33,471 nucleotides of DNA from Cyclobacteriaceae bacterium (GTDB lineage: Bacteria > Bacteroidota > Bacteroidia > Cytophagales > Cyclobacteriaceae): NCBI GenBank assembly GCA_013140555.1, contig JABFSO010000486.1:1-33471 (forward strand). Direction: 5' to 3'. The notes beneath the pieces are model-generated. The model had not been told where the DNA came from. It saw only the letters and a list, made by a program, of their open reading frames with translations, and ran no database searches. Numbering within the stretch: the stretch's first letter is position 1; each line of letters opens with the position of its first letter. A program made the translations under genes and the position numbers. This document shows, piece by piece, positions 1,144 to 31,795 of the stretch.

Positions 1144-3436
1144 ATTCCTTCGGGTAAAAAAGACCTGGATACCCAAGGCTATTAAGTACACTTGGATTTT
1201 ATTCCTGTGCTTTATGCTCGGCTTGCCTCTTTACATCCTAAGTGTAAAAGTAGACTTGTTTGGCTTATTCGGGGGCATGCCTAGCTTGGCAGAAATTGAA
1301 AATCCGGATAATGATTTATCATCTGAGATTCTTTCGGCCGATGGCGTTTCGTTAGGAAGATATTTTCGCTATAACCGAAGTCAGGTGCATTACAATCAGT
1401 TGTCACCAGACTTGGTGAACACGTTATTAATATCTGAAGACCATCGCTTCTATGAGCATTCCGGGTTGGATCTTCCTGCCTTCCTTCGCGTTATCAAGGG
1501 TTTAGTTACTTTCAACCCTGCTGGCGGTGGCAGTACACTAACTCAACAATTAGCTAAGAATCTCTTTACGATGAATCCTGATAAAGGATTGGACGGGGTG
1601 CTTTCAAAGCTAGGCAAATACCCACGGAGAATAATTCAAAAAACAAAGGAATGGATTATATCGGTTGAGTTGGAAGAAAATTTCACGAAAGAAGAAATCA
1701 TTGCTCTCTATTTAAACACATGTGATTTTAGTAGTGGTTCTTTCGGAATTAAGATTGCTGCCGAGACTTATTTCAAGAAGCAGCCGGATAGTTTAAACTT
1801 GCAAGAGTCAGCAGTTCTTGTTGGTATGCTTCAAGCGCCTACTCGATATAATCCACCTCTTCATCCAGAAAGTTCTCTATCTAAAAGAAACGAAGTTCTT
1901 TTAAAAGTATATCGTCATGGCTATAAGGTAAAATCCAGAACTCAGTTTGATTCAATTAAGGCACTTCCTATTGATCTAAAATACAACGTTCAAAATCAAA
2001 ACGAAGGACTGGCTACCTACTTCCGCACGGTATTGCAAAATTATCTGACCAAGTATTGCAACGACAAGGGCATTGACCTCTACAACTCCGGTTTAAAAAT
2101 TTATACCACCATCGACAGCCGTTTGCAAAAGTATGCCGAAGAGGCGGTGAGCGAACACATGAAAGATTTGCAAGCCAAGTTTTTCAATGAGTGGAAAAGA
2201 AGAAACCGCAACCCGTGGGTAGATGAAAACGGTGTGGAGATTAAAGACTTTCTTCAAAAACGTATTAAGCAAAGTGATGCCTACAAAATGTATGTGGAGA
2301 AGTATGGAGAAAACTCTGACTCATTGAAAATCATGCTCAAGCTGAAAAAGCCTATGACTATCTTCACTTGGAATGGCGAGCGAGATACCACCTTCAGCAG
2401 TTTCGATTCGCTCAATTATTACAAACGCTTTTTGCAAACCGGCTTGATGTCGATGGACCCGAACACCGGTCACATCAAAGCATGGGTGGGAGGTTTCAAT
2501 CACAAATATTTCAAGTTCGATCACGTGCGCCAAGGCAAACGTCAGCCTGGTTCTACTTTCAAAGCATTTATCTATGGTCTGGCAATTGAAAATAATTATT
2601 CACCATGCCACGAGATGACGGATATTTCACCGCAGTTTTCCATTCCGGGCCAACCCGATTGGTACCCCATGAACTCTAATGGCACGCGAGGTTCCGGCAA
2701 GAAAATGACCATCCGTCAGGCCATGGCACAATCGGTAAACGCCATTTCAGCACAACTCATGAAAGACCTCGGTGAAGAGAATGTAGTCGAGTTTGCACAC
2801 CGCATGGGCATTGAAAGTCATTTGGATGCTGTGCCTTCGTTGTGTTTAGGAACCAGTGATGTTTCATTGTTTGAAATGGTGGGCGCTTACAGCACTTTCG
2901 TGAATGGCGGTATCAACACACAACCGTTTTTCATTTCACGCATTGAAGACAAAAACGGAAACGTGATTGAAAACTTCGTTCCTAAAACTAAACAAGCCAT
3001 CGATGAACAAACTGCTTATCGAATGATTTACATGTTGAAAGGTGGTGTAGAAGAACAAGGTGGCTCATCTCGTGGATTGAGTCCCATTATTTTACAAGAC
3101 AACGAAGTAGGCGGAAAAACCGGAACGACCAACGATGCATCAGACGGTTGGTATATGGGGGCCACCCATAATCTCGTTACCGGTGTGTGGGTAGGTGGAG
3201 ACGAGCGTGCTGTGCATTTTCCTTCATGGGATTTTGGTCAAGGTAGCCGTACCGCCCGACCTATTTGGGATAAGTACATGGTGAAGACGTACTCCGATCC
3301 GAAAACTGGTGTTGCGAAAGGATATTTCAAACGTCCTTCCAATGGTGTTGATGTTTCGTTTGACTGCGGTAAGTTCACCCAAGTATCTGACTCGGTCAAA
3401 GTGAAAGACGAAGACGAGTGGGATATTAAAAATTAG
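1094..3436 (+). CDS. mrcA: Penicillin-binding protein 1A (bifunctional transglycosylase/transpeptidase)
   Basis: 780 aa; N-terminal TM segment, GT51 motifs EDHRFYEHSG and GGGSTLTQQLAKNLF, transpeptidase SVNAISAQ and KTGTTNDASDGWYMG. Confidence 0.95.
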   Translation: MSTSPSSIGTIKSKVSKFLRVKKTWIPKAIKYTWILFLCFMLGLPLYILSVKVDLFGLFGGMPSLAEIENPDNDLSSEILSADGVSLGRYFRYNRSQVHYNQLSPDLVNTLLISEDHRFYEHSGLDLPAFLRVIKGLVTFNPAGGGSTLTQQLAKNLFTMNPDKGLDGVLSKLGKYPRRIIQKTKEWIISVELEENFTKEEIIALYLNTCDFSSGSFGIKIAAETYFKKQPDSLNLQESAVLVGMLQAPTRYNPPLHPESSLSKRNEVLLKVYRHGYKVKSRTQFDSIKALPIDLKYNVQNQNEGLATYFRTVLQNYLTKYCNDKGIDLYNSGLKIYTTIDSRLQKYAEEAVSEHMKDLQAKFFNEWKRRNRNPWVDENGVEIKDFLQKRIKQSDAYKMYVEKYGENSDSLKIMLKLKKPMTIFTWNGERDTTFSSFDSLNYYKRFLQTGLMSMDPNTGHIKAWVGGFNHKYFKFDHVRQGKRQPGSTFKAFIYGLAIENNYSPCHEMTDISPQFSIPGQPDWYPMNSNGTRGSGKKMTIRQAMAQSVNAISAQLMKDLGEENVVEFAHRMGIESHLDAVPSLCLGTSDVSLFEMVGAYSTFVNGGINTQPFFISRIEDKNGNVIENFVPKTKQAIDEQTAYRMIYMLKGGVEEQGGSSRGLSPIILQDNEVGGKTGTTNDASDGWYMGATHNLVTGVWVGGDERAVHFPSWDFGQGSRTARPIWDKYMVKTYSDPKTGVAKGYFKRPSNGVDVSFDCGKFTQVSDSVKVKDEDEWDIKN

Positions 3437-22190: not shown

Positions 22191-22271
22191 AAACTTATTA
22201 AGGAATACGATAAAATAAAGCCTGATACGATTGAGTTTGACGTAAGCATTTTAAACTATAGAGTAAAATGA
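22191..22271 (+). pseudogene. C-terminal remnant of a HigB-type toxin
   Basis: Frame encodes KLIKEYDKIKPDTIEFDVSILNYRVK*, like the conserved HigB tail (...GTHKEYDKID..TIEF); its stop overlaps the downstream ATG as ATGA; no upstream toxin body. Confidence 0.6.
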
Positions 22272-22462
22272 ATTGGAGCGTATTGAAGACGGAAGCGACT
22301 TATCAAAAAGCAGTTAAGCGCACCTTAGCCATATTTCACGCCAAAGAAGGAACACCTGAGTCAAATGAGTTAGCCATGCTTTTGGTATTGATTAAGGATT
22401 ATGAGGATAAACACATTCATATCCCTGAAGTTGACCCGCTGGAGGTCATCAAGTTATTTTAG
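22268..22462 (+). pseudogene. Truncated HigA-type antitoxin (N-terminal region only, no HTH)
   Basis: MNWSVLKTEATYQKAVKRTLAIFHAKEGTPESNELAMLLVLIKDYEDKHIHIPEVDPLEVIKLF* matches the HigA N-terminal pattern and stops where the HTH domain should begin. Confidence 0.75.
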
Positions 22463-22493: not shown

Positions 22494-22501
22494 TATCTTT
22501 G
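22494..22501 (+). promoter_or_regulatory. Bacteroidetes-type -7 box (TAnnTTTG)
   Basis: TATCTTTG; -33 element weak. Confidence 0.6.
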
Positions 22502-22505
22502 CAGT

Positions 22506-22586
22506 AGCATCGCCCAAAGGGTGAAGGCATTGGCTTCGCAAGGCCGTACATTGCGCTCCGCACCAACAGGGTGCGGTTTTCATTTT
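22506..22586 (+). ncRNA. Candidate small RNA, about 80 nt
   Basis: Follows TATCTTTG -7 box; TCGCCC-AAA-GGGTGA hairpin (22510-22524), CGCAA...TTGCG (22537-22555), terminal CCGCACC-AACAG-GGTGCGG (22558-22576) plus TTTTCATTTT; GC-rich in AT-rich surroundings; no good ORF. Confidence 0.55.
22558..22586 (+). terminator. Intrinsic terminator of the candidate small RNA
   Basis: CCGCACC aacag GGTGCGG TTTTCATTTT; T-run overlaps the stop codon of the convergent 22585-23088 gene. Confidence 0.75.
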
Positions 22587-23088
22587 AGCAGTTCCCATTT
22601 CCTTGTTGGAAATCCCTGAACCTTTCATAAAAAGTAGCTTTTTGGCTTTTATCAACACAAAAGGCTGTGACGATTTGTAAATCTTGACTGACATCTTTTA
22701 GTACAACCATAAAATCTTTAGCAAAGAACCAGTAATGATCTTTACAAATGCGATCATCATCCTTCCATCGATAAAACTTGACATCATTGCATGGATGTGA
22801 TAGCAGAATAGGTTTTATCCAATGAATACGATTTGCTCTGCGGCTATCATAAATCCTCTCATTGGTGAGTGAACGAGTAATGATATGAATAAATGTTTCA
22901 GGGTACTTACTGTACTCCTTTATCTTCGATACTTTTCCAATAAACTTGATCTTTTTTCCATTAACCATTAAAGGATTACTTATAAAATCCGTTTTGAACG
23001 TTTCAAAAAACTGATCAATTTGTTCTGTATTGAATCCAGGCTCAAGTTCATTGTCATCAAAAAATGGCACCAAATCAATCAAACTCAT
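22585..23088 (-). CDS. Hypothetical protein, candidate BECR-fold (phage-barnase/EndoU/colicin/RelE-like) RNase
   Basis: 167 aa; FIHIITRSLTNERIYDSRRANRIHWIKPILLSH...HYWFFAKDFMVVLKD...LQIVTAFCVDKSQKATFYERF recalls PBECR-type nucleases; ATGA overlap with upstream DUF3800 gene. Confidence 0.5.
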   Translation of the reverse strand: MSLIDLVPFFDDNELEPGFNTEQIDQFFETFKTDFISNPLMVNGKKIKFIGKVSKIKEYSKYPETFIHIITRSLTNERIYDSRRANRIHWIKPILLSHPCNDVKFYRWKDDDRICKDHYWFFAKDFMVVLKDVSQDLQIVTAFCVDKSQKATFYERFRDFQQGNGNC

Positions 23089-23786
23089 TTTACGATAGAT
23101 TTGGGTTGAAAATCAAAAATATTAAACTTTGACTCCCATATGGGCGTGCCTTCATTAAGTACAAACCCTGATTTTTGTTCGAGGTAATCGACAAATTCAT
23201 CTTTCAATTTATTCTCTATCAATTCACCACTTACTCTTCTGTTTTTATACGCGACTGAGCCAATGAATAAATCTGCAAGTTGAAAGAATACACTTTCGTG
23301 AGATCTTAAATTTTGGTAATGAATAAAAGGGGAATCGCCATGATGATGATTCTTAAAAACTTCGTCTATTTTTAATAAGCGATCTTTCCCCCTAGTATCC
23401 TTGATATCAATGAAAACTCGATACTGAGACCCAGAGGGGTTTGGACGCAGCAAGTAATACATCATTTTATAATAAAAATTATCATGAGAGCCTTGATTAA
23501 AATCCTTATGTGAAAGTCTGTCTTTATACTTAACCAAGACGCATCGGAATTCTAACGGATTATCAAAGAAAAAATCAACTAAGCACTTGTATAGTGGTAA
23601 ACGAGAACGAGATAACTTACTCCACTTTATTTCTGCTGGCGTTTGAAATTGGAACTTAACTTTTAACAAGGCTTCGCGCAATTCCGCATAAACGAGCTTA
23701 GGCACTTTGATATACCCAATGCACATTATAGGAATTTTATCATGTTCCAAGTGACAGCTTTCATCTACAAATAAATTGTATTTCAT
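23085..23786 (-). CDS. DUF3800 domain protein
   Basis: 233 aa; N-term MKYNLFVDESCHLEHDKIPIMCIGYIKVP, YRVFIDIKDTRGKDRL, SVFFQLADLFIGSVAYKNR; matches the DUF3800 acidic-residue layout. Confidence 0.85.
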   Translation of the reverse strand: MKYNLFVDESCHLEHDKIPIMCIGYIKVPKLVYAELREALLKVKFQFQTPAEIKWSKLSRSRLPLYKCLVDFFFDNPLEFRCVLVKYKDRLSHKDFNQGSHDNFYYKMMYYLLRPNPSGSQYRVFIDIKDTRGKDRLLKIDEVFKNHHHGDSPFIHYQNLRSHESVFFQLADLFIGSVAYKNRRVSGELIENKLKDEFVDYLEQKSGFVLNEGTPIWESKFNIFDFQPKSIVK

Positions 23787-24016: not shown

Positions 24017-24030
24017 CTGATTTTTATAGT

Positions 24031-24104
24031 GGGAGCTGAGGGGTTCGAACCCCCGACCCTCTGCTTGTAAGGCAGATGCTCTGAACCAGCTGAGCTAAGC
24101 TCCC
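24031..24104 (-). tRNA. tRNA-Val (anticodon TAC)
   Basis: Reverse complement GGGAGCTTAGCTCAGCTGGTTCAGAGCATCTGCCTTACAAGCAGAGGGTCGGGGGTTCGAACCCCTCAGCTCCC; 7-bp acceptor stem, GGTTCGAACC T-arm, CTTACAA anticodon loop. Confidence 0.97.
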
Positions 24105-27767: not shown

Positions 27768-30644
27768 TTAATTCCCATAATAAATAAAGGGTGCCCAGAA
27801 GTGCGGGTGCTGAAATTCTTTCCCAAAATCCCCTTTTATAAATTTCCTCTTCAGCTCATTTACAATTTGTGGGTACGATTTTCCTTTTGCTACTTCCTTG
27901 TAAAAGTTGCTCATGAACAACATCGTGCTGGTGTCATTCACCGGCCACAGCGACACCAGCGCTGCATTGCTGCCGGCTATCAACAAGGATTGTGTTAATC
28001 CTGTAACACCTTCACCTACATACAATTTTCCCAGCGCTGTTTGACAAGCTGATAACACCGTCAAATCGCACTTCAATTTTAGATTTGAAATTTCCATTGT
28101 ATTCAGAAAACCATCTTCGCCTCCCTGCTCTTGCGTAAAAATACTCATCGCCACGCCTGAGAGATCAGGTATCTGTGAAACTACGAAGCCGTGCGTTGCG
28201 AGATGCAGCACTTTGTAATTGGCTAATTCACCGCTCTTCGACATAGCTTTGACGCGATTCTCTGTCATATCCTTTCCTAAAAAAACATCGGCCTCGGATA
28301 AATTTTTACTGATGCTTTTCACTTCTTCTACGGTGCCGGGTAAAGCATTCATGGCTCTAGTGCCAAACAAACTGGCATACGCATTACGTACCGATTTATT
28401 ATCGCGCAGGTTCTCTGCCACTTCCGCTTGCAAGAGTGTGAGATCGGCCTCTGTTGACAATACTTTTCGGTCGGTTGCCAACTCTTCATAAATAGCACCG
28501 CCCATTGCCAATAGCGGTTTGCGCGATGATTCATATTTGCGCTCCGCCAATTGCTGCATCACGCTGGCTGAATGCAGATAGCGTATGTTGTATTTCTCCA
28601 CCAGGTATTTTCCGTCAAATGTTTTCAATGCTTCAAACGGAATAAAACTTAATACATCATTGGGCGAAATGATTAATGTCTTAATGCCACCTAAGCGATT
28701 GTTGATGGGCGTGATGAGGAAGCGTTGATAGCGTGTCAAAAAATCCATCAGCACCTCAACGCCTAAGTTTGGATCCTCGGAATATTGACGTGTGAGTTTC
28801 ACCACGCGATCAAAATCGTTCCGTGGCGCAATGGCATCGCGGTCATAGCCACGGTTTACTTGTGTGCGCTGGTGATCCTGACTGATCCACTCAAAACCAC
28901 GAGCCGGTTCTTCTAAAGTGTGTTCGGTGGCTTGCTCTTGTTTCGATCGTTTAAAGTATCGGTCGCGAATATCACCTACAAAGCGAGGATCTGCATGATA
29001 ATAAACATGCGCATACTTTTTCGTTACAGTTAAAATCACCACTTCATAGCCTGAAAAAACATGATACATCAAACAAGCTTCATCGGGCTTCAACAGGTTT
29101 TGAAATTCAGCAATCGTAGGAGGTGCAATTGCCTTCTGCGCCAATCGCTCGCTGAGCACGCGCGCTCGGCTGCGCTCCATCGCCTCAAAAGCTTTTTCGG
29201 TGTTGCCCGTTTGGGCATAACACATTACCAACCATTGATTGGCACTCATCTGGCTTTGGTAATGCGACAACCGATCTTGTGGGTTGCTGTACACCACGCC
29301 CTCACTGGCTAACAAGGCAGCTTCCTCAAATAACTGAATGGCTTGCTCGATATCTTGTTGCTGATAGTACATCGTTGCCAAATTGTTCAGGTAGAGTGAA
29401 GCGTCACTCAATCGGTTTTCTTTCTTGGCTTGCTCGATTTGAAAACGATACAAATTGCGACACTTCTGCTGTCCATCGCGACCGGTGCCCCAGTACAATA
29501 GCGCCAGATTAGAAATGATGGATCGCTTCATGATCAAATGATTTTCCTCGGCTACTTTAAAACCATATTCGCCATAGCGGATGGCTGAGGTGCTGTAGTC
29601 GGTATTGTAGCCAGACAACACGATGGAATTGGCCGCAACTACTACTCCGTTGATGTATTGATTTTTTAACGCGAGGTCATACGCTTGAATGGCCAATTGA
29701 TTAGCTGTTGATTGATTCTTTTTTGTGTCTCCACTGCGCATCGTGCTATATGCCACAGAAAGATTCGTCAGTCCATCGATATCCACCGGAACAAGAGTCG
29801 ATTTGCCCATGTGTTCATAAAAATCTTCACTAAACTGAATGGCTTTTTCCGGATCGCCTTTATCGATATGATAGGCCATGAGTTGATCAATGAAAAACGT
29901 TGCCAGATAATGGTTGTCGCCATATCCTTTTGATTTCAACTGCACATATCCTTCGGTGGCGATCTCCAGTGCCTCACTTTTGTAGCCCCAGTTATTCAGC
30001 CAACGCGCTGCATAACTAAATGCCAGCAAGGCCATCACGGGTTTATTCTGTTGATTGAAGAGTGCCACCTTTTCGCGACACTGCTTCATTAACTCAGCAG
30101 GATTTTCCGGATATTGGTTATAGAGTGCAATTAATTTATCAAGCGACCAGTCGCGTTCGTGTATGGAAGGTTCGGTTTGCTTTAACCATTGCGCCAGATT
30201 TTGAAACACTTCCTGTTTGTTAAACACTTTTCCAAACTCTTTCATCTCCTCTATCGCCACTTGCGAATCTTCATTCTCCGGAGAAAGTCGAATGGCTTCC
30301 GTCAATAATTTTTTTGCTTCTGTCACATTGCCTTGCTGTGCGAGCACATATGCCTTAGCAGTTATGGAAGCTGCAGACGTAGGATCCATGAGCAATACAC
30401 GATCGATGTAAGTCAATGCCTCTGTTGGGCGATTCAGAAAGAGCAAACACGCTGCTTGATTTCCATTGGCTGTCAGGTTATCCGGAAATATCCGTAAGTA
30501 TTGAGTAGACAGCTGCAGCGATTCGCTGTACTTTTTTTCCTGATAAAGGGAGAGCATCTTTTTTTCTAATTCGGTATAATAATCCTGAGCCGACAAAGAA
30601 AAATTGATTAACAGAAAAAGGAAGATGATGATCGATCGCATCAT
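27768..30644 (-). CDS. TPR-CHAT domain protein (caspase-like)
   Basis: N-term signal MMRSIIIFLFLLINFSLSAQ, TPR repeats, C-terminal CHAT with KVLHLATHGFV and LTVLSACQTALGKLYVGEGVTGLTQSLLIAGSNAALVSLWPVNDTST; starts in TAATG overlap with upstream gene. Confidence 0.93.
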   Translation of the reverse strand: MMRSIIIFLFLLINFSLSAQDYYTELEKKMLSLYQEKKYSESLQLSTQYLRIFPDNLTANGNQAACLLFLNRPTEALTYIDRVLLMDPTSAASITAKAYVLAQQGNVTEAKKLLTEAIRLSPENEDSQVAIEEMKEFGKVFNKQEVFQNLAQWLKQTEPSIHERDWSLDKLIALYNQYPENPAELMKQCREKVALFNQQNKPVMALLAFSYAARWLNNWGYKSEALEIATEGYVQLKSKGYGDNHYLATFFIDQLMAYHIDKGDPEKAIQFSEDFYEHMGKSTLVPVDIDGLTNLSVAYSTMRSGDTKKNQSTANQLAIQAYDLALKNQYINGVVVAANSIVLSGYNTDYSTSAIRYGEYGFKVAEENHLIMKRSIISNLALLYWGTGRDGQQKCRNLYRFQIEQAKKENRLSDASLYLNNLATMYYQQQDIEQAIQLFEEAALLASEGVVYSNPQDRLSHYQSQMSANQWLVMCYAQTGNTEKAFEAMERSRARVLSERLAQKAIAPPTIAEFQNLLKPDEACLMYHVFSGYEVVILTVTKKYAHVYYHADPRFVGDIRDRYFKRSKQEQATEHTLEEPARGFEWISQDHQRTQVNRGYDRDAIAPRNDFDRVVKLTRQYSEDPNLGVEVLMDFLTRYQRFLITPINNRLGGIKTLIISPNDVLSFIPFEALKTFDGKYLVEKYNIRYLHSASVMQQLAERKYESSRKPLLAMGGAIYEELATDRKVLSTEADLTLLQAEVAENLRDNKSVRNAYASLFGTRAMNALPGTVEEVKSISKNLSEADVFLGKDMTENRVKAMSKSGELANYKVLHLATHGFVVSQIPDLSGVAMSIFTQEQGGEDGFLNTMEISNLKLKCDLTVLSACQTALGKLYVGEGVTGLTQSLLIAGSNAALVSLWPVNDTSTMLFMSNFYKEVAKGKSYPQIVNELKRKFIKGDFGKEFQHPHFWAPFIYYGN

Positions 30645-31795
30645 TAATAGGAATTGAGGTTGCACAAATCTCCATTGAAACTAACGAGGCTTTTTCGGAC
30701 ATTACCGTTAAAGTATGTTTCTTCTACATCAAAATTGACAGAGGCGGACTTTTGCGAAACGCGAAAGTGTAAAGTTTGATAATACTTGTCGTTTTCTTCT
30801 ACCGTAGAGCCCACCGTCTTGCTTCCCAGTTTATTTCCCTTCTTATCAAACGCTTCAATACTTATTCTAAATACACGTTGGATGCCGGTGGTGTATTTAT
30901 GCCCCACCAAAAAAGTATAACCGCTCTGACAAACCGAAAGGATAGCCAATCCAAAAGTGTAGTGGTCGCGAGTGGTGCTGATCTCGTATTGATAAAAGTG
31001 CTTCTGCACGAAGGGAAGTTGGGTAACATCTTTTGCCTGATTAATAACTGTACTGTAGTCGTAGGGGAAGGCGAATTTCTCGAACTGATTATAAAATTGC
31101 TGAAAGTCGGGTGGTAATTCTTCCGTAAGAATAATGTTCTTCACATCCTGCTCTTCCACTTTGGCCATCGCGGCCTGACTTGCAATGATGCGCTGCTTTC
31201 CTTTCTTCGGATCGAATACCTGCACTTCGTCCACCCGCAAACTCATGTTCTGACTTACATACAATGCGATCATAGGGCCAAAGAATGGCTTGATCGCATC
31301 ACGAAAGACCTGCTTATCATTAATCAAAAATTGATATTCACCCGAGCGCTTGATTATTGTCAATGTGTTGTAATCATAAGGCTTGATGACCGTTGACTTC
31401 GATTGCCGCAGCACTTCGTGCTTTTTTCCGAAGTTGGCCGTAATCAAAAAACCTTGCGCATTGTTGTAAGAAAACGTGAGATACTTCTTTGCGTCTTCAC
31501 TCATGCCGAAGCGGACGCCCATCCAGCCTTCGCTGGTGCCATTGAAAAAAATCATCCGTGCATGCATACCAAAGTCATCGTCCTTCGTGATGCCTACATT
31601 TTGAAAGGTGTGTACCGAAGTAGTGTTGGCATCGATCACCAAATGCCCTTCCTGAATTTTAAAACCATAAGCGGCTGTTACTTCTTCAAACCACTTATTG
31701 CGATTATCGTCAAACCCATCGGCCAGGTATTGAATCGATTGACTTTGCGCTAGCGACACAACAAATGACAAAATAATGACAAACCACTTCTTCAT
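30644..31795 (-). CDS. Secreted hypothetical protein with LamG/concanavalin-like N-terminal region
   Basis: Start at MKKWFVIILSFVVSLAQSQ (31795); GFDDNRNKWFEE...GWMGVRFGMSEDAKKYLTFSYNNAQGF; stop overlaps the CHAT gene start. Confidence 0.65.
   Translation of the reverse strand: MKKWFVIILSFVVSLAQSQSIQYLADGFDDNRNKWFEEVTAAYGFKIQEGHLVIDANTTSVHTFQNVGITKDDDFGMHARMIFFNGTSEGWMGVRFGMSEDAKKYLTFSYNNAQGFLITANFGKKHEVLRQSKSTVIKPYDYNTLTIIKRSGEYQFLINDKQVFRDAIKPFFGPMIALYVSQNMSLRVDEVQVFDPKKGKQRIIASQAAMAKVEEQDVKNIILTEELPPDFQQFYNQFEKFAFPYDYSTVINQAKDVTQLPFVQKHFYQYEISTTRDHYTFGLAILSVCQSGYTFLVGHKYTTGIQRVFRISIEAFDKKGNKLGSKTVGSTVEENDKYYQTLHFRVSQKSASVNFDVEETYFNGNVRKSLVSFNGDLCNLNSY

Follow-up and report, generated by a model that had tools for sequence, protein, structure and literature searches.

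The locus analysed here raises the question of what a short structured RNA does when it faces a two-gene operon of a putative defence module and also occurs alone in phages. The window (the whole stretch of 33,471 nucleotides that was analysed, from a Cyclobacteriaceae bacterium) holds the element at positions 22494-22580 of the plus strand, where the box TATCTTTG is followed by three hairpins, the last of which is the terminator. The box (22494-22501, +) was assigned as a Bacteroidota-type -7 promoter box (TAnnTTTG) from its sequence and its spacing in homologues. The small RNA gene spans 22506-22580 (+), with a predicted start near 22505-22508 and a predicted transcript of approximately 75 nt. 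Hairpin 1 (TCGCCC-AAA-GGGTGA, 22510-22524, +), recognised by homologue comparison, is followed by a TTGG joiner (22530-22533, +) whose TGG is kept in all aligned members. Hairpin 2 (22537-22555, +) pairs CGCAA at 22537-22541 with TTGCG at 22551-22555; its stem freely covaries and its loop carries a conserved CCGTA (CCNTA) at 22544-22548. Hairpin 3 is an intrinsic terminator (CCGCACC-AACAG-GGTGCGG-TTTT, 22558-22580, +), supported by double changes in homologues, with the stem CCGCACC/GGTGCGG at 22558-22576 and a T-rich tail that extends as far as the convergent gene's stop codon (22585-22587). The box, both upstream stems, the terminator with its T-run and the overlap of that run with the convergent stop codon had all been listed in the initial annotation and were found in place.

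That annotation had also proposed a candidate undescribed RNA, not recognised as a tRNA, 6S, SRP, tmRNA or riboswitch. Comparison of the window RNA with all 4227 Rfam models gave no match up to E = 10, which supports the claim, and its assignment as a tRNA, a tmRNA or a member of any Rfam family was rejected. A SNORD11 match near position 22660 (E = 1.4) was dismissed as chance. The RNA is present as a single copy in its own genome, which ruled out a repeat element or the end of a mobile element. With the window RNA as query, a nucleotide search found nothing among records of phages and plasmids. Fold energy alone was mildly better than chance (z = -1.93, with 7 of 200 shuffles equally good).

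Homologous loci were more informative. BLAST against 397 genomes of the same family returned one clear homologue, named by a later scan as belonging to Algoriphagus yeomjeoni, and a third member of this subtype (the window subtype) came from a viral contig. A covariance model built on these three members (R1) found four further strong members, namely G380, G319, G131 and the near-identical loci G231 and G235, counted as a pair, as well as the more divergent G088. An RNA-first search by pattern through 85,462 species genomes produced 58 matches, which R1 sorted into 17 clear members (E ≤ 4e-8) and a remainder with E > 7e-4. Most weak model matches above the latter value were judged to be chance, and L026 was rejected since it had only hairpin 1 in common with the window RNA. 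Members of the window subtype were found in Cytophagia, Flavobacteriia, Bacteroidia and KSB1.

A lack of covariation that preserves the structure among homologues had been named beforehand as one refutation of the RNA; such covariation was found. For hairpins 1 and 3 in 25 aligned homologues, 94.8% of the cells were paired, compared to 80.9 ± 1.3% after shuffling; double-change cells numbered 45 (13.6 in shuffles), and the covariation score was 0.372 (0.170 in shuffles). Double changes occurred at all 7 pairs of hairpin 3. The mean stem of hairpin 2 was 6.05 bp, whereas 2000 partner swaps averaged 3.97 bp and reached 5.0 at most, in a test anchored on the CCNTA loop, so that pairing itself was not selected. 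Hairpin 1 varied among homologues as TTACCC/GGGTAA, TTGCCC/GGGTGA and TTTCCC/GGGAAA; since the search pattern partly imposed this hairpin as well as the TGG joiner, the constancy of the two has to be read with caution. Many members had an extra small hairpin between hairpins 1 and 2. The promoter-like box and the terminator were also conserved, and in most cellular homologues the TTTG ended exactly 6 nt 5' of a conserved CAT, while the TTTG was mostly absent from phage copies of the window subtype. It is thus the homologue comparison, and not fold energy, that places the element far beyond chance as a genuine conserved RNA gene, with transcription predicted from its sequence.

The initial annotation overlooked the main point, which is that the RNA lies in a two-gene putative defence module and has lone copies in phages. 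The window RNA is convergent to an operon of a DUF3800 gene and a partner gene, which are adjacent and match the protein models of the PADLOC candidate PDC-M04. PDC-M04A (23085-23786, -) encodes 233 aa and matched DUF3800 (Pfam PF12686, E = 4.9e-12) and PADLOC (E = 2.8e-79), while the RlfB-like partner PDC-M04B (22585-23088, -) encodes 167 aa (PADLOC E = 3.2e-57). Both genes adjoined the RNA in convergent orientation at 14 of the 17 clear homologue loci of the RNA-first scan and at none of the other 41, far weaker pattern matches. The association with DUF3800 was thus found in these 14 loci and additionally in loci sampled by their proteins. For two of the three loci without A and B (L182 and L158) the fetched stretch ends near the RNA, and no A and B were seen for the RNA of L158 in the overlapping stretch L079, where at 1648-3060 (-) on a cellular contig the window-subtype RNA is convergent to a different large gene that is not PDC-M04. 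The third (L150) carries two tandem window-subtype RNAs (2972-3188, +) in a type I restriction locus, between hsdR and a pair of PIN and Shedu-like genes and without PDC-M04 genes; hairpin 1 of the first RNA reads TTTCCC/GGGAAA.

In most loci the module was enclosed by a type I restriction system, with hsdS on one side and hsdR on the other, and it stands alone in the window and in L151, L157 and L192. At one locus (L074) a window-subtype RNA and hsdR are joined to A and B proteins that belong to a different lineage, the B protein being 55% identical to that of L213, and this mixture suggests that RNA and protein lineages are exchangeable. The window also holds a tRNA-Val gene (24029-24104, -) approximately 240 bp upstream of where the DUF3800 gene begins, and the module may have inserted next to it as an island. 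A frame of 64 aa that immediately precedes the RNA (22268-22462, +) had no Pfam match and looks like a truncated start of a HigA-type antitoxin. Further along the window (27768-30665, -), a TPR-CHAT domain protein (caspase-like) is encoded, and the two large frames that come after it had no Pfam match.

Structure prediction pointed to a nuclease for PDC-M04A. Its model was of good confidence (pLDDT 85) and matched RNase HII in Foldseek (E = 3.1e-5, probability 1.0), and the alignment showed that D8, E9, D127 and D172 were invariant, so the DEDD residues are kept. From its fold, PDC-M04A is a predicted RNase HII-like nuclease. The AlphaFold2 model of PDC-M04B (pLDDT 90) has a four-stranded sheet with no significant Foldseek match (best E 0.067), and searches of Pfam, NCBIfam and PDB sequences returned nothing. 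The ribonucleases HigB, colicin E5 and colicin D recurred among its weak top matches, which hint at a BECR-type ribonuclease; as these matches are suggestive and not significant, a proven BECR assignment was rejected.

The closest annotated relatives of the window DUF3800 protein were RlfA of phage P1 and its kin, P1 RlfA being 39% identical to a PDC-M04A. The two P1 genes rlfA and rlfB are listed as non-essential, with the remark 'possibly associated with lytic replication' (PMC10695390), and in the P1 record no RNA is annotated at this place. Both A and B were present at 14 loci when 346 Bacteroidota genomes were sampled by their proteins, and four of these loci have the window-subtype RNA. 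In most of the others a second RNA subtype was found in the same convergent slot, with the arrangement CTCAT-stem-ACCANGTGT-stem-AARGAG, a second hairpin and often a terminator. A covariance model of this subtype (R2) was built from solitary phage RNAs only, none of which adjoined A or B genes. It detected P1-like RNA in seven of the 14 loci (L206-L212, E 2e-16 to 0.02), and the remaining three were weak (L216, L217 and L213, E 0.15-0.58). R2 also recovered the convergent RNA beside rlfB in P1 (E 9e-10) and beside B in Bifidobacterium phage Bbif-1 (E 2e-9) and a faecal phage (E 2e-4). The P1 RNA is located between rlfB and pmgF, has a sigma-70-like promoter (TTGAAA-17-TAGATT) on one side and a terminator on the other, and had no Rfam match up to E = 1. 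R1 did not match the loci of the second subtype, nor did R2 match the window RNA. The subtypes share their position, their partner genes and a short frame, CA-U-stem-A-ARG, and it is these features that link them, common descent not being proven. At L213, a DUF3800-VIII RNA of Rfam lies on the RNA strand approximately 190 nt beyond the weak P1-type hairpin, and it was rejected as the occupant of the slot at that distance.

Solitary copies were widespread in phages. The window subtype occurred alone in nine viral contigs and the P1 subtype in 105 stretches of viral contigs; among 80 P1-subtype loci examined, A and B lay beside the RNA in nine (mostly P1-like) and not in the other 71. Two base pairs left free by the search pattern were 99.2% complementary in 61 distinct P1-subtype sequences, compared to 60% in shuffles (maximum 73.8% in 10,000). 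The structure is complete in phage copies, with both hairpins present, and matches to PHROG families confirmed phage genes (terminase, replicative helicase) on several contigs. DUF3800 was found in none of 48 viral records with a solitary RNA, and both positive controls were detected among the 50 records searched, many of which are fragments. The same absence held for the complete genomes of five carriers, SPbeta, phi3T, Vibrio phage 1.084.O, a Rhizobium phage and Streptococcus Javan443. SPbeta (NC_001884.1) carries an unannotated array between yonN and yonK (L340, 2505-2748, +), in which two P1-type RNAs are followed in tandem by a DUF3800-VIII RNA. One RNA of each kind is present in tandem in phi3T (L342), and the two kinds are also in tandem at L290. 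At L291 (2067-2163, +) a drum RNA (RF02958) adjoins a solitary P1-type RNA on a 184-kb phage contig. The Rhizobium phage locus (L343, 1140-1506, +) has two weak matches to YrlA (Y RNA-like) in a cluster with the P1-type RNA, tRNAs and a gene for a TROVE (Ro60-like) protein.

These solitary copies bear on two of the alternative explanations. The RNA could be a cis element only, acting as a bidirectional terminator or a 3'-antisense regulator of the operon, as might be thought from the overlap of its terminator with the end of B and from the B reading frames that in some loci extend into the terminator. Conservation goes beyond the terminator and takes in hairpins 1 and 2 as well as the precise spacing of the promoter, and phage copies with neither operon nor DUF3800 gene on the record already contradict this explanation, which we consider very improbable. 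Alternatively, the RNA could be first of all a phage RNA, regulatory or part of tRNA arrays, whose own role is unrelated and which the module senses or has recruited. This would suit the tRNA genes found in 22 of 41 checked solitary P1-type loci, often directly flanking the RNA, and the spread of P1-type copies over Bacillus, Vibrio, Rhizobium, Streptococcus and other phages, but against it stand the conserved promoter of the cellular copies and their strict position beside B, and such an origin appears unlikely.

The combination of a fixed structure, a nuclease-like protein pair, a frequent place in restriction loci and lone phage copies, with no repeat/spacer or hypervariable guide segment in the alignments of either subtype, fits best with an RNA-controlled nuclease whose RNA an invader can supply. 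Under the proposed mechanism, the module would consist of the RNase HII-like nuclease (PDC-M04A, equivalent to DUF3800 and RlfA), its partner (PDC-M04B, equivalent to RlfB) and the short convergent RNA, which would be expressed from its own promoter and whose terminator would also close the protein operon. The RNA would most likely bind the A-B proteins and keep them inactive. Phage-induced shutdown or degradation of host transcripts would lead to loss of the short RNA and let the nuclease act, following the logic of an RNA antitoxin and not of a guide. Phages would keep the nuclease off by supplying an RNA of this kind in trans, often from within their tRNA genes and sometimes from arrays that combine subtypes. 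Inhibition would account for the retention of complete RNAs and of several subtypes by phages. We rate this three-part anti-phage module, with an inhibitory RNA and a counter-RNA supplied by phages, as having about an even chance of being correct. Its counterpoints are that PDC-M04 is a PADLOC defence candidate with a putative defence role, that the P1 genes are listed as non-essential and with a possible link to lytic replication, that a few cellular copies adjoin other genes (L150 and L079/L158), and that neither subtype is matched by the covariance model of the other.

The main rival to inhibition is that the RNA is a required cofactor of the A-B complex, as scaffold, activator or substrate-presenting RNA, and that phage copies are decoys which would tie up the proteins unproductively. 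The conserved partnership, the RNase H-fold protein and the lone phage copies would be explained equally, and solitary CRISPR-repeat mimics in phages (Racrs, PMC10651486) offer a parallel for decoys. Phage copies retain the whole structure with both hairpins and not merely a binding part, and there is no variable guide region, both of which count against a cofactor with decoys; we regard it as a tentative possibility. In the broadest reading, a widespread PDC-M04/RlfAB defence in Bacteroidota, P1 and an actinobacterial phage would be controlled by a small convergent RNA, and the phage RNAs, single or in arrays of several subtypes and inside or outside tRNA clusters, would be a panel of antitoxins or decoys matched to different versions of the defence, a proposal as likely to fail as to hold. 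The conserved RNA beside the module and the lone phage copies suggest a protein-RNA defence that phages may disarm with an RNA of their own.

As far as searched, a convergent RNA as a regular component of both PDC-M04 and P1 RlfAB appears to be new, as do the lone copies and arrays in phages without the proteins. The rlfAB locus of the textbook phage P1 lacks an explanation, and the RNA-protein layout and the lone phage copies unite it and the DUF3800-associated RNAs in one question, whether a phage RNA switches off a nuclease defence, which is testable in Escherichia coli and Bacillus subtilis.

Among known systems, the DUF3800-I to -XI RNAs of Rfam are alike in being short structured RNAs near DUF3800 genes. 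DUF3800 RNA motifs were reportedly described in a 2017 study, and to our knowledge no function has been assigned to them, Rfam listing them without one. The window RNA matches none of the eleven models. DUF3800-VIII (RF03075) shares loci with P1-type RNAs, but its structure differs from both the window and P1 RNAs, and it adjoins the P1-type RNA without being that RNA. RNAs near DUF3800 genes are of a known kind, with Rfam families, as cited in PMC10910872. If the proposal is true, these orphan RNAs would gain a function. To PDC-M04 and P1 rlfA-rlfB the likeness is closer, as both window genes match strongly and P1 also has a convergent RNA, but the PADLOC entry consists of protein models only and has no RNA component. 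Type III toxin-antitoxin systems (ToxIN) are likewise protein-RNA modules, and phages can escape them by RNA antitoxin mimicry, as with the ToxI mimic of PhiTE (PMC3475682). The ToxIN antitoxin is a tandem repeat upstream on the same strand, whereas the window RNA is single, non-repetitive and convergent, and this departure from the repeats and gene order of type III antitoxins is a further counterpoint to inhibition. The toxin has the ToxN/AbiQ fold, whereas A is RNase HII-like and B has no significant match, and neutralisation of the protein by the RNA, as in type III systems, is a proposal for the PDC-M04 module. RNA anti-CRISPRs are also solitary copies of a host-defence RNA in phage genomes (PMC10651486); the window case differs in having no CRISPR array, Cas protein or CRISPR repeat, and its counter-defence role is likewise a proposal. 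If this is true, RNA-based counter-defence would be common, beyond CRISPR and ToxIN.
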